Part shown: positions 1,104 through 15,037 of the stretch, piece by piece
How the letters are laid out: each line of letters opens with the position of its first letter
Position numbering within the stretch: the stretch's first letter is position 1
Virus record (IMG/VR): IMGVR_UViG_3300043445_000096
Span: 1 to 44,965 of that record
Source: a virus
Length of the DNA: 44,965 bases
Strand: one strand, 5' to 3'
Position numbers and translations under genes: made by a program
Notes under the pieces: model-generated
Seen by the model: the letters and a program-made list of their open reading frames with translations, nothing else
Database searches by the model: none
What the model was told of the DNA's origin: nothing

Positions 1104-1838
1104 TCATACACATCCCCCATGCCACACGACCTGACCCACGATACGGAGCTGCTGGGCTTGGCTGGCTGTAAGTTCCTGGCCTCTGTAACGGGGATTGTCG
1201 GATGAGATCAGGACACCGCCGGTGGCGAAGTTGCGCTCGATCCGTTTAACCACAAGCTCTCCATCCATCGACATCACATAGACGGCGAAATCCTTGAACG
1301 CCGTTATGGAGATATCGACCAAAAGCAGGTCGCCGTTGGCGATGGTCGGCTCCATGCTGTCGCCGTTGGCCTCGATCAGGATGAGGTCCTCCGGGTTCCG
1401 GCGCAGCGTCCGGCGAACCCACTGCGCCTTGAAGGCCAAATGGTCCACCACCTGCTCGCTGGTGACCACGGCCCCGCCACCGGCAGCAGCGCGGACTTCG
1501 TATCGGGGCAGCAGCACGAACTCTGGTCCAATTGCGGCCAACCCATCTTTTGCCGGAGGCGCGGCGCCCGATGCACGCTCACCTCCGGCGACCCAGTTGA
1601 GGTCGACGCCGATGGCAATAAGCGGCGCAAGGCTATCCAAGGAGGGACTGCGGTGGCCGGCCTCATAGGTACTGTACGTCCTGAGACCGACGCCCATCTG
1701 GTGCGCAAATTCCCGCTGCGTCAGCCCGAGTCGGCCCCTTTCTTCAGCCAGCCGCTCCGCGATCACGCCCTTTCGTTCGTCACTCGCTGACGAACGAAAG
1801 GGCGCTATGGGCTTTTTTGCACCTTCGTTCGTGCGCAT
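1104..1838 (-). CDS. Phage repressor, XRE HTH plus S24 (LexA-like) peptidase
   Basis: This 244-aa protein has an XRE-type helix-turn-helix at about residues 24-80 (motif LTQREFAHQMGVGLRTYSTYE) and a C-terminal S24/LexA-like domain. Visible hallmarks are a likely self-cleavage Ala-Gly at 119-120, the catalytic Ser161 in GDSMEPT and Lys198 in VVKR. Proteins of this type repress lytic promoters and cleave themselves when stimulated by RecA filaments. Prophage induction by DNA damage is therefore likely, unlike the classic Mu c repressor. The start at 1838 is chosen for the GGGGG ribosome site 5 bases upstream; ATGs at 1850 and 1868 are alternatives. It is divergent from the Ner-like gene. Its 5' coding part contains a striking inverted repeat (1766-1804). 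Confidence 0.9.
   Translation of the reverse strand: MRTNEGAKKPIAPFRSSASDERKGVIAERLAEERGRLGLTQREFAHQMGVGLRTYSTYEAGHRSPSLDSLAPLIAIGVDLNWVAGGERASGAAPPAKDGLAAIGPEFVLLPRYEVRAAAGGGAVVTSEQVVDHLAFKAQWVRRTLRRNPEDLILIEANGDSMEPTIANGDLLLVDISITAFKDFAVYVMSMDGELVVKRIERNFATGGVLISSDNPRYRGQELTASQAQQLRIVGQVVWHGGCV
1766..1833. promoter_or_regulatory. Inverted repeat and third half-site, putative repressor operator
   Basis: Perfect 16-bp arms at 1766-1781 and 1789-1804 flank a 7-bp centre (core CTTTCGTTCGTC / GACGAACGAAAG). A third half-site, CCTTCGTTCGTG, lies at 1822-1833. All of it falls inside the first codons of the repressor gene. It could be an autoregulatory operator, or a hairpin in the repressor mRNA. 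On the plus strand a T6 run follows at 1813-1818, but 8 bases after the stem, so it is a poor terminator. Confidence 0.55.
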
Positions 1839-1929
1839 TTTTACCCCCATAATCAACGGGTTAGGCATTTTTCAGCATTTTTCTGGGGCGCACTGCGCAC
1901 ATTTGACGAGCGAAGCGCGGCTATGTGCT

Positions 1930-12002: not shown

Positions 12003-12502
12003 GCGCGCCGCCCCGCCACAGCCTGACCGATGAAGAGGCGGAGCGGCTGCGCCGCCGGGACAGCCTGCCCATGTGGCCGGAAGTCTATTTGACCATCGTG
12101 CGGGTGGCGGGGGAGGAGCGGACGCGGCGGCTGGCGCGGGAGCTGGGGGGCGAGCGGGTGGAGTTCCCGGCCAACCCCCGGCCGGACAACCGGCTGGTGG
12201 CCATCCTTGGCCGCCGGGCGGTGCAACTGCTGCACCAGGAGTTCGGGGCCGCCCGGGTCAAGCTGCCCGGGGCGGTCAACTACCTGACCCTGTGCCGGGC
12301 GAGAGAGCTGCGGGCCAAGGGCAAAACCCTGCGCCAGATCGCAGGCCTGCTGAACCGGGATGTGGATACCATCAGCCGGTACTGCATGGGCGTGGAGCCG
12401 ATTTGCGCAAACCTGCAAATCGGCCCGAAATCCGCCCCCCGGCCGGAGCCGCCGCCCCTGCCCCTGTTCGCGTGGCGGCGCGGGAGACGCACCGATGGCT
12501 GA
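11999..12502 (+). CDS. Mor-family middle/late transcription activator
   Basis: The protein has 167 aa from a GTG start. Residues 45-130 show the Mor/C family layout: LARELGGERVEFPA, a GRRAVQLLHQEFGAARVKLP dimerisation block, then RARELRAKGKTLRQIAGLLNRDVDTISRY as the helix-turn-helix. In Mu, Mor activates the middle promoter and its relative C the late ones. Only one such gene is visible here, so it probably switches on the late genes from 14,543 onward (inferred). The tail after residue 135 is Pro-rich. Confidence 0.82.
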   Translation: MSAPPRHSLTDEEAERLRRRDSLPMWPEVYLTIVRVAGEERTRRLARELGGERVEFPANPRPDNRLVAILGRRAVQLLHQEFGAARVKLPGAVNYLTLCRARELRAKGKTLRQIAGLLNRDVDTISRYCMGVEPICANLQIGPKSAPRPEPPPLPLFAWRRGRRTDG

Positions 12503-12575
12503 CTCTCCCCTCCTGGCTATGCAACCCTGCCCATTACCGCCCGCCATCCCGGCGGGCCTGGGTAACGGAGGCAGC

Positions 12576-13358
12576 ATGTCGTTCGGCAAGGATGTCGCGA
12601 CCGATCCGGAGACGATCTTGATCGGATTCGACCGGGTCATGGAGACGGTGGAAGGGGTGCCGGCCTGGGTGCTGGGCCATCTGCGCAGCGGCTATGTCAT
12701 CGCCAACAGATCCGGTGACACGCGATTAGAGGAACGCTACATCGCGGCGGGTCTCAGCGAAGCGGACTGGCGTTGGCCCTGGCTGGAAAACTGGATCGCG
12801 CGGTTCACGGAGGAAAATCTGTGGCCCGTAACCTACAAGGACTATCAGCACATCGCGGCCGGTCGGCCGGCGCCGGTGTCCGTTGCAGACGCCCTGCGCT
12901 GGCTGACAGTGGACGATCTGCGTGCGGTGGCTGGAACGGTATGCCCCACCGCGAAGGTGCCGCGTGCCAAGGCCGGGATCATCACGCTCTTGGAGCAGCA
13001 CCTTGACCTGCCTGCGGCTTTGGCCCTCCTGCCCGAAGATCAGCGGGTCTCCTCCCCCCCGAACCCCAAGCACCTGAGCCACGAGCGGGCGCGGCTGCTG
13101 GCGCACACGATTTCGCATTCCGTTTTCGAGATACGCCGCTACCAGCAGGGTTCGGACATGGAGGATTGGGAGATCGACTTCGAGTTGGCGGAAGACTTCG
13201 ATCCGGTCGGCGCCGCCTTTGCCCGCCCCATTGTCGAGCGGATCAGGCAGACAAAGGAAGGATCCCTCCCACCCTACTTCCCCGGCGACATGACCCGTGT
13301 CGATTGGATCACCCCCTCCCTGCGCCGTATGCGAGAGCGGAAGGTAGGTGAGGCATGA
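12576..13358 (+). CDS. Uncharacterised protein, possible moron
   Basis: The protein has 260 aa from ATG 12576, which has ACGGAGG 4-5 bases upstream. An in-frame ATG at 12495 would add a low-complexity stretch without a ribosome site. It is less Ala/Gly-rich than its neighbours, with many Trp (DWRWPWLENW) and acidic residues. Residues 106-150 (LRWLTVDDLRAVAG...RAKAGIITLLEQHL) resemble a SAP-like helix-turn-helix. The C-terminus reads DWEIDFELAEDFD. It lies between the Mor-like gene and the C4/antirepressor module, a position where phages often carry cargo. Function unknown. Confidence 0.65.
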   Translation: MSFGKDVATDPETILIGFDRVMETVEGVPAWVLGHLRSGYVIANRSGDTRLEERYIAAGLSEADWRWPWLENWIARFTEENLWPVTYKDYQHIAAGRPAPVSVADALRWLTVDDLRAVAGTVCPTAKVPRAKAGIITLLEQHLDLPAALALLPEDQRVSSPPNPKHLSHERARLLAHTISHSVFEIRRYQQGSDMEDWEIDFELAEDFDPVGAAFARPIVERIRQTKEGSLPPYFPGDMTRVDWITPSLRRMRERKVGEA

Positions 13359-13372
13359 CCGGCGCATCTGAT

Positions 13373-13401
13373 TTGACACCATCGCGCCATCGGCGTTACC
13401 G
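13373..13401 (+). promoter_or_regulatory. Predicted promoter of the C4 RNA
   Basis: TTGACA lies at 13,373-13,378 and TTACCG at 13,396-13,401, with a 17-bp spacer. The expected transcription start near 13,408-13,411 coincides with the beginning of the structured RNA. The -35 box is consensus and the -10 is poor. Confidence 0.5.
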
Positions 13402-13410
13402 TCCTGCCAC

Positions 13411-13559
13411 GGGCCTCGAAAACCCGATGATCACAGGCGGTGACGCCACCCGAGAGCTTGGCGCGGACCAATCCGCTTCAGCCCAGGGTCCCCATGCGCA
13501 TGTCCAGGGCGCAAGCCTAAAGGCATGGGGGCACGCTCCTGTGACGTGTTTTCGAGCCC
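13411..13559 (+). ncRNA. C4-type antisense RNA controlling the antirepressor
   Basis: The outer arms GGGCCTCGAAAAC...ATCACAGG (13,411-13,437) and CCTGTGACGTGTTTTCGAG (13,538-13,556) pair over a long range. Inside are GGCG-GTGA-CGCC with a GNRA loop (13,436-13,447), GCGGA/TCCGC (13,463-13,476) and CCCCATGC/GCATGGGG (13,490-13,530). Two segments are complementary to the leader of the next gene. CTCCTGTGA (13,536-13,544) pairs with TCACAGGAG (13,612-13,620), covering its ribosome site. GTTTTCGAG (13,548-13,556) pairs with CTCGAAAAC (13,578-13,586). This two-site arrangement is that of the C4 antisense RNA, which blocks ant translation in phages P1/P7. A covariance search was not possible here. 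Confidence 0.75.
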
Positions 13560-13577
13560 TGGGTGCGGACTGATCGC

Positions 13578-13623
13578 CTCGAAAACGTAAGGCCGCACTC
13601 CTCATCTATGATCACAGGAGTGC
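13578..13623 (+). promoter_or_regulatory. C4 target sites and RBS-sequestering hairpin of the antirepressor
   Basis: a' (CTCGAAAAC, 13,578-13,586) and b' (TCACAGGAG, 13,612-13,620) match the C4 RNA segments. In addition GCACTCCT (13,595-13,602) and AGGAGTGC (13,616-13,623) form a perfect 8-bp stem that hides the AGGAG ribosome site. Translation of the antirepressor thus looks doubly gated, by its own fold and by the antisense RNA. Confidence 0.7.
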
Positions 13624-13628
13624 CGATC

Positions 13629-14270
13629 ATGTTGTTGAAGCCCACTTCCGTCGCGGAGTACGACGGCCACCCAATCGACATTTACGATGCATCAGGTATC
13701 CGCTGGATAAGGGGGGGACAGGTTTGTCACTCCCTTGGGGTCACCGACAGAACCCTGAAGCGGATTGTGCGGCAGCACCGCAAAGAGTTCACCGCCGAGC
13801 TGACGCAGATCGTCACCGTTCCAACGTCCGGCGGGTCGCAGCAGGCCCGCGTGTTCAGCCCGCGCGGGGCGGCGCTGGTGGCGATGCTGACCAATTCGCC
13901 GCGCGCCGCCGCCTTCCGCGTGTGGGTGCTGGACACGCTGGAGGCCAGGGTGGCCGATCCGGCGCCCAGCCCCGCCCTGCCGCCGCCGGACATGGTGGCG
14001 GTGCCGAAGGCCCTGGTCTCCACCCTGGCCCGGCTGACGCTGCACCAGAAGCCGGAACTGCGCCGGGTGCTGGCCTATCGCCGCCGGGGCTTCAGCGTGG
14101 CGGAGACGGCGAAGATGCTGGACCGGCATCCGCGCACGGTGACCAAGGATCTGCGGGTGTTGGAGGTGCTGGGCCTGATCGACCCGGCCCCGGCGGAGGT
14201 GCGGGCGCGGGCGGTGGCCAGCGCCGCCGCCATGCGCACCCGGCTGCAGGGTGGGGGCGCCCATGGCTGA
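13629..14270 (+). CDS. BRO-N family phage antirepressor
   Basis: The protein has 213 aa. Residues 1-105 form a BRO-N domain: HPIDIYDASGIRWIRGGQVCHSLGV, then RTLKRIVRQHRKEF, ending in FSPRGAALVAMLTNSPRAAAFRVWVLDTLE. The C-terminal part (130-190) has a helix-turn-helix RRRGFSVAETAKMLDRHPRTVTKDLRVLE. Antirepressors of this type inactivate phage repressors or act as DNA-binding regulators. The start at 13,629 uses AGGAG 8 bases upstream; the open frame extends to 13,563 but that part is the RNA leader. A second, P1-like immunity switch next to the S24 repressor is unusual for a Mu-like phage. Its target is unknown. Confidence 0.82.
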   Translation: MLLKPTSVAEYDGHPIDIYDASGIRWIRGGQVCHSLGVTDRTLKRIVRQHRKEFTAELTQIVTVPTSGGSQQARVFSPRGAALVAMLTNSPRAAAFRVWVLDTLEARVADPAPSPALPPPDMVAVPKALVSTLARLTLHQKPELRRVLAYRRRGFSVAETAKMLDRHPRTVTKDLRVLEVLGLIDPAPAEVRARAVASAAAMRTRLQGGGAHG

Positions 14271-14460
14271 CCTTCCTCTGGCCGTCAAAGACGCGGCCCA
14301 TGATGTGGAACTGGTGGGGCGGGCGCTGGAGGGGCTGTCCTATCTATTGAGCCTGGACCGGGAGGAGCGGTGCCAAGTGCGCCGCGACACCATGGCGGAT
14401 ATCGTGGCCCTGTCCGGCGATGTCCTGGTACGGCTGGCCGACCGCATTCGGACGGCCTGA
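14263..14460 (+). CDS. Small hypothetical protein, last gene before terminator
   Basis: The protein has 65 aa, predicted as two helices with a charged turn (VELVGRALEGLSYLLSLDREERC...). The ATG at 14,263 lies inside the end of the antirepressor gene (8-bp overlap), so it is probably co-translated with it. It could be a small partner of the antirepressor. No family recognised. Confidence 0.6.
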   Translation: MADLPLAVKDAAHDVELVGRALEGLSYLLSLDREERCQVRRDTMADIVALSGDVLVRLADRIRTA

Positions 14461-14508
14461 CACCCCCCGCCCGCCGGGGGTAACCCGGCACCCCGCGCAC
14501 GCGATACT

Positions 14509-14540
14509 GGCCGCCATCTCCCCCCAGATGGCGGCCTTTT
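14509..14540 (+). terminator. Intrinsic terminator ending the early operon
   Basis: A perfect 11-bp stem GGCCGCCATCT / AGATGGCGGCC with a C6-7 loop is followed directly by TTTT. It separates the early/antirepressor block from the late block; the late gene start at 14,543 lies only 2 bases after the T-run. Confidence 0.85.
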
Positions 14541-14542
14541 CC

Positions 14543-15037
14543 ATGCGGTCTATCCGGTACCTGCGCGGCACGATCATCGCCCCCGCCCTGGCGCGGGTCG
14601 CGGCCGTGCCCGGCATGGCGGCCTTCGCCAGCGAAGGCGCCATCGACCTGGTCCTTGGGACCGGGGCGGTGGAAAGCGGATACCGCGACATCCGCCAGCA
14701 CCCGACCGGCCCCGCCATCGGCTGGTGGCAGATCGAGCCCGCCACCCATGACGACATCTGGGACCGGTTCCTGGCCCACCGGCCGCCCCTGCGGGCGGCG
14801 GTGCAGGCGCTGCTGATCCCCGACATGCCGCGCCATGACCAGCTGGCGGCCAATGCCTATTACGGGGCCGTCATGGCGCGCCTGGTCTACTGGCGTTCGC
14901 CGCTGCCGGTGCCGCCCCAGGGCAATGTCCTGGCGGCCGCGGCCCTGTGGAAGCAGGTCTACAACACCCCCCTGGGCGCCGGGACCCCGGCCAAATACGC
15001 CCAAGCCTGGAACGCCATCATCGCCAACCGTCTGTAG
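14543..15037 (+). CDS. Lysozyme-like endolysin (transglycosylase fold)
   Basis: The protein has 164 aa. The likely catalytic Glu44 lies in GTGAVESGYRDIRQ, followed by GWWQIEPATHDDIW, the arrangement of lysozyme/SLT-type muramidases that cut the glycan strands of peptidoglycan. The C-terminal half is helical (YYGAVMARLVYWRS). The first 25 residues are hydrophobic and basic and may act as a signal-anchor. The start is uncertain: ATG 14,543 comes right after the terminator T-run and has no clear ribosome site, while ATG 14,528 lies inside the stem. It heads the late operon, next to the holin-like gene. Confidence 0.7.
   Translation: MRSIRYLRGTIIAPALARVAAVPGMAAFASEGAIDLVLGTGAVESGYRDIRQHPTGPAIGWWQIEPATHDDIWDRFLAHRPPLRAAVQALLIPDMPRHDQLAANAYYGAVMARLVYWRSPLPVPPQGNVLAAAALWKQVYNTPLGAGTPAKYAQAWNAIIANRL

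Follow-up and report, generated by a model that had tools for sequence, protein, structure and literature searches.

The C4 RNA of phages P1 and P7 carries a bipartite antisense, made of the segments a' and b', and sits in an antirepressor operon in which one copy of its targets lies upstream, a1 occupying the loop of a hairpin, and another over the ribosome site. It folds into a closing stem (P1), a structural helix capped by UUCG (P2) and a helix P3 that holds b' in its loop, with a' in the linker, and it is processed by RNase P from a longer transcript to about 77 nt (PMC5320573). The b' loop occludes the ribosome site, and a' adds specificity (PMC5320573; PMC12197685). According to the account in PMC12197685, Citron and Schuster proposed C4 as the prototype of a regulatory RNA class with possible further members. 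In phage P22, the small RNA sar blocks translation of ant (PMC12197685). Another RNA, sRNA-Xcc1 (RF02221), is known from Xanthomonas as a trans-acting sRNA linked to an integron and to virulence; its ends have been mapped, giving 88 nt, and a band was seen near 100 nt (PMC2996969); it is encoded by an integron and controlled by HrpG/HrpX (Chen et al. 2011, as cited in PMC12189769).

The locus described here lies in a 44,965-nt stretch of viral DNA (IMG/VR record IMGVR_UViG_3300043445_000096), called the window below, and is very probably an RNA-controlled antirepressor cassette, C4-like in action, whose RNA forms a separate family. The RNA is flanked by a gene of unknown function (12453-13358) on its 5' side and by a gene encoding a 213-aa protein on its 3' side. 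The features are as follows:

1104-1868, minus strand: S24/HTH phage repressor (Pfam Peptidase_S24, E = 2.5e-22; PHROG repressor, E = 1.7e-45)
13373-13378 and 13396-13401, plus strand: promoter-like TTGACA and TTACCG, spacer 17 nt
13410-13437, plus strand: upstream target copy, direct repeats of a2/b2
13415-13423, plus strand: a1, CTCGAAAAC, in the loop of a CGGG/CCCG hairpin
13431-13437, plus strand: b1, TCACAGG, 3' of a1
13481-13564, plus strand: antisense RNA, 84 nt, with helices P1, P2 and P3
13481-13488 and 13557-13564, plus strand: P1, GCCCAGGG and CCCTGGGT
13490-13497 and 13523-13530, plus strand: P2, CCCCATGC and GCATGGGG, with the core UGUCCAGGGCGCAAGCCUAAAG
13532-13535 and 13545-13548, plus strand: P3, CACG and CGTG, with the b' sequence as loop
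13536-13544, plus strand: b', CTCCTGTGA, in the P3 loop, complementary to the ribosome site
13548-13556, plus strand: a', GTTTTCGAG, in the linker from P3 to P1
13578-13586, plus strand: a2, CTCGAAAAC, in the leader of the BRO-N gene
13595-13623, plus strand: local leader hairpin, GCACTCCT and AGGAGTGC, predicted to cover the BRO-N Shine-Dalgarno sequence when the antisense RNA is absent
13612-13620, plus strand: b2, TCACAGGAG, containing the Shine-Dalgarno sequence AGGAG (13616-13620) of the BRO-N gene
13629-14270, plus strand: BRO-N and helix-turn-helix protein of 213 aa, predicted antirepressor
14509-14546, plus strand: terminator-like hairpin, after a small ORF (14263-14460) that itself lies 3' of the BRO-N gene

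The sequence-only reading of this DNA had proposed two complementary pairs between a structured RNA and the leader of the next gene, and both are exact, b' matching b2 and a' matching a2 at all nine positions. Such a nested double 9-nt match was obtained once in 20,000 dinucleotide shuffles of 13481-13640. In the window RNA, P2 encloses the core TGTCCAGGGCGCAAGCCTAAAG with an inner hairpin GGGC-GCAA-GCCT, and the linker TTTTCGAG precedes the 3' strand of P1. The stretch of about 150 nt that had been taken for the RNA is indeed structured, but the RNA proper accounts for 84 nt of it and the rest is the upstream copy of the targets (13413-13437), which that reading did not contain and in which both targets are repeated, as GCCTCGAAAAC (13413-13423) and ATGATCACAGG (13427-13437). 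The window thus shares with C4 the bipartite logic, the layout of the three helices, target copies on both sides of the RNA, with a1 in the loop of a hairpin and the downstream copy at the ribosome site, and the place in an antirepressor operon; it differs from P1 in that the RNA directly precedes the antirepressor gene, without an icd-like ORF. Sar is encoded opposite its target region, whereas the window RNA, though its proposed action is similar, lies upstream on the same strand and has two short, separate pairing segments.

The promoter-like boxes are likewise present, but they do not start at the RNA, as had been thought: the upstream target copy comes first, and the mature RNA begins only some 100 nt after TTGACA/TTACCG. 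The -10 box of the window is weak and a consensus promoter scan did not call this pair, whereas, of 59 family loci, 41 have a TTGACA-like box immediately before a1, against 11 in shuffled sequences. The search for an S24 operator common to 1869-1993 and 13331-13480 returned only a shared promoter box, TTTGACAC. As for the folds, the RNA alone reaches its minimum energy (-41.3) in a structure other than the one supported by covariation (-36.5), and the fold predicted for the precursor pairs a'/b' with a1/b1. Cofolding of the RNA with the leader did not predict intermolecular pairing at equilibrium, and equilibrium energies alone thus do not predict that the two associate. The leader hairpin at 13595-13623 has a pairing probability of about 0.98-1 in the window. 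An anti-Shine-Dalgarno hairpin exceeded 0.7 in 17 of 30 loci, a weak excess over shuffles, and it is therefore not claimed as a family-wide feature.

The product of 13629-14270 had been called a BRO-N antirepressor, and profile searches agree: its Bro-N domain scores just above the Pfam cut-off (E = 1.4e-5, 26.1 bits against 25.6) and it matches the PHROG "anti-repressor Ant" (E = 6e-20). Its C-terminus is a helix-turn-helix and contains no known antirepressor C-domain, and tblastn searches of phages and plasmids returned only distant matches to its N-terminal part. By homology (Bro-N, PHROG Ant), the operon under RNA control would be an antirepressor operon, and the BRO-N gene probably triggers prophage induction. 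The description of the phage as Mu-like, with an S24 repressor, also stands, as profiles identified MuA and MuB homologs, a Ner-like protein, a Mor-like late activator and the S24 repressor; terminase, portal, MuF-like and capsid proteins are encoded as well. Judged by this gene content, the phage is Mu-like (transposable). The S24 protein is presumed to be the main immunity repressor and the target of the antirepressor, and by analogy with P1 it is plausible that the phage has two immunity circuits, the S24 repressor and the antisense control of a presumed antirepressor, as had been suggested from the sequence. Among relatives sought for the neighboring genes, none was found for the gene at 12453-13358, 5' of the RNA, and one (L020) for the transposase; the 12.6-kb stretch of L020 contains neither the BRO-N gene nor the RNA.

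A distant blastn search with 13380-13640 matched two Manatee Spring phage genomes, and the 87 nt aligned correspond to the RNA. The next gene in these phages encodes another predicted regulator, and both a and b have changed without losing complementarity to their own leader. The same searches with other family members, against phages and plasmids, returned only these two phages. The closest relative of the BRO-N protein (L023, 59% identity) is preceded by the same RNA, in which a and b are both changed while complementarity is kept. From these three sequences we derived a core pattern, TGTCCNNGGNGNNAGCCTAAAG, which matched 57 IMG/VR contigs, all readable in the same fold. RNAalifold gave 22 base pairs on this pattern-found family, 17 of which showed pair-keeping changes on both sides. 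A covariance model built from 54 sequences, with the window left out, scored the window at 86.8 bits (E = 5e-23), a value that is not independent by itself because the core pattern was partly derived from the window. Among 98 BRO-N loci that had not been chosen by the pattern, the model placed the RNA as expected in L053/L054, L073 and L043. In a survey of 399 Pseudomonadota species genomes centered on a Psychrobacter genome (G003), it matched 49 (E ≤ 1e-3), about one in eight; C4 was found in 61 of these genomes and sRNA-Xcc1 in 58, 40 of them above the cut-off. In 35 independent RNAs found by the model, 97% of cells were standard pairs, 20 of the 22 pairs showed double changes and the covariation score was 0.68, while shuffles gave 0.18 and slid alignments no more than 0.11, although this alignment leans somewhat towards the model structure, to which it was fitted.

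For b' and a' in 56 loci, we then compared the longest stretch of perfect complementarity in their own leader with that in foreign leaders. Both segments matched their own leader (b', z = 13.5; a', z = 14.1) and their own upstream 100 nt (b', z = 16.0; a', z = 18.5) far better than foreign ones, and for each of these four tests 0 of 10,000 permutations reached the observed value; a distal control about 250 nt downstream gave z = 0.6 and -0.3 for b' and a', respectively. An independent genome set replicated this result (z = 10.1 for leaders, 11.7 upstream, 0.0 for the control). Compensatory changes of a/a' and b/b' are thus present in homologs. This covariation across dozens of homologs gives strong support to a C4-like antisense acting over the leader of the BRO-N antirepressor gene, the P1/P7 logic that had been read from the window.

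The scenario that we favor is the following. A transcript started at the TTGACA promoter would carry, in order, a1/b1, the 84-nt RNA, a2/b2 and the BRO-N gene. The structured RNA would expose b' in the P3 loop and a' in the linker, would be released by processing of the transcript and, once freed, would bind a2, and b2 over the ribosome site, blocking BRO-N translation in trans and possibly in cis. This block would result in stable lysogeny and would also silence any incoming phage whose a/b type is the same, while a joint change of a and b would create a new immunity type without altering the scaffold. Transcription, 5' processing, repression in trans and antagonism of the S24 repressor by BRO-N are steps that we infer by homology. 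Because the predicted precursor fold uses the upstream copy, modeling suggests that a1/b1 either holds the antisense inactive or is a second target.

The main rival is a switch that acts in cis only, in which an element never released from the leader would pair with either a1/b1 or a2/b2 and thereby set BRO-N expression. RNA and target do lie on the same strand in one transcript, and the two copies offer mutually exclusive pairings, one of which is that of the precursor fold. However, the three-helix fold is self-contained, ends sharply at P1 and is conserved alone; some loci keep the RNA and a1/b1 without a2/b2; and C4 and sRNA-Xcc1, alike in fold, exist as free RNAs (PMC5320573; PMC2996969). 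We therefore regard a purely cis-acting element as improbable.

It is still less probable that the RNA is a divergent member of Rfam C4, even though layout and gene slot are the same. The assignment to C4 made from the sequence did not hold at the level of the family: in an Rfam scan, the window gave no match at gathering score, and 13000-14500 gave none even at E ≤ 5, C4 (RF01695) included; the window was not matched at this threshold by the c4-a1b1 model (RF03163) either, and 18 family-bearing loci had no Rfam match. The C4 sequence differs, and its P2 lacks the core of the new family (UGUCC..GG..CCUAAAG). Moreover, weak matches of the new model fall on RF02221 loci, to within about 3 nt, not on C4. 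On sequence and covariation, the RNA is a member of a large separate family unlisted in Rfam, which we did not find in Rfam 15 or in the literature searched. Both known RNAs nevertheless occupy the same slot in relatives of the BRO-N gene, C4 in L001, L051, L055 and L084, and sRNA-Xcc1 in nine Psychrobacter-type loci as well as in L026, L039 and L041; in L001, weak isrK and c4-a1b1 matches lie 5' of C4, preceded by the same TTGACA box.

Finally, chance complementarity among coincidental hairpins, for which one could invoke the GC-richness of the region and the 72-aa ORF (13355-13573) that passes through the RNA, is excluded for practical purposes by the comparative data, given the shuffling result, the family-wide covariation and the fact that the sequence 5' of the RNA in L023 bears little relation to the gene that precedes the RNA in the window.

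Within the new family, 53 downstream genes were compared with Pfam, giving seven Rha, seven Bro-N, four ORF6N, three P22_AR_N and one AntA, and many of the downstream genes are PHROG anti-repressors. At some loci, a small ORF of unknown function comes first, and the gene after it encodes an antirepressor in L053, L137, L154 and L159 and an HTH regulator in L105, L111, L114, L153 and L156; the order of RNA, small ORF and antirepressor recalls c4-icd-ant of P1. The small ORFs directly under the RNA encode 60-95 aa in L105, L111, L114, L153, L156, L112, L158 and L144; the genes that follow are of the XRE-type HTH class in the first five and T5orf172/MUG113 genes in L158 and L144. These small-ORF loci are candidates for new icd-like or antirepressor operons. 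The RNA and BRO gene precede Mor in a related Mu-like phage (L126) and follow Mor and gene 12453 in the window, which suggests a cassette that moves as a whole.

Another group of copies, which we call orphans (L108, L113, L127, L135, L143, L152, L157), has a P1 made of GTCGGGGAG and CTCCCCGAC, keeps an upstream b1 match of 8-10 nt and mostly lacks the downstream target; some of the next genes resemble host membrane proteins or lipoproteins. The P1 of L171 and L185, from the genome set, is similar to theirs. Orphan copies are possibly retained as trans-acting RNAs.

The closest described relative of the new family seems to be sRNA-Xcc1. With a length of 87, RF02221 shares P1, a long P2 with an inner hairpin, P3 with b' in its loop and the a' linker, has target copies both up- and downstream and precedes antirepressor genes, as here. 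The P2 cores differ, AUACAAuACC..GGGGAA in RF02221 against AUGUCCARGGCG..AGCCUAAAG in the new family, where UGUCCARGGCGNRAGCCUAAAG takes the place of the absent RF02221 core. The RF02221 model did not match the window at E ≤ 5, nor the 18 family loci at gathering score, and two genome loci (G374:C16 and G120:C235) were matched by both models, with the RF02221 score below cut-off. New family and sRNA-Xcc1 thus appear to be sister families. In nine near-identical Psychrobacter-type RF02221 loci (L002, L003 and L011-L017; upstream copy 2736-2800, RNA 2862-2950, leader 2951-2990, with L012 shifted by -1049), five versions of b occur, b1, b' and b2 always being changed together, and a exists in two. 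Twenty further genome loci of RF02221 (L191-L210) gave own-versus-foreign z values of 6.1 for leaders, 8.6 upstream and 1.1 for the control, and the gene after the RNA is often an antirepressor. Because the same lockstep pairing is present, sRNA-Xcc1 also looks like a C4-type antisense. One key sRNA-Xcc1 paper aside, the literature searched contained no joint mention of sRNA-Xcc1 and antirepressors; one sRNA-Xcc1 paper that also contains the word "prophage" uses each word once.

It is tempting, though tentative and on balance doubtful, to view C4, sRNA-Xcc1 and the new family as three branches of one RNA superfamily, the general immunity switch of exchangeable specificity in Pseudomonadota prophages, whose orphan members silence the antirepressor of infecting phages; if so, the orphan copies would amount to RNA-based superinfection immunity. 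In the sampled genomes the new family is roughly as frequent as C4, and it is invisible to current annotation. Its natural covariation would predict which phages share immunity, the RNA marks candidate antirepressor operons, small unannotated neighbor genes included, and the comparison offers a testable function for sRNA-Xcc1, so far a virulence-linked integron sRNA without a clear target.

C4-type elements may also occur in groups. L072 contains an array of them, with two sRNA-Xcc1, AaHKsRNA82 and C4 within about 800 nt (1574-2384), 5' of a BRO-N gene; AaHKsRNA82 (RF02900) takes the isrK/a1b1 position before C4 both there and in L055. Three tandem C4 matches were also observed within 1.5 kb in one genome (G056:C237, 13851-15365), and they resemble clusters reported in Xylella and Acinetobacter.
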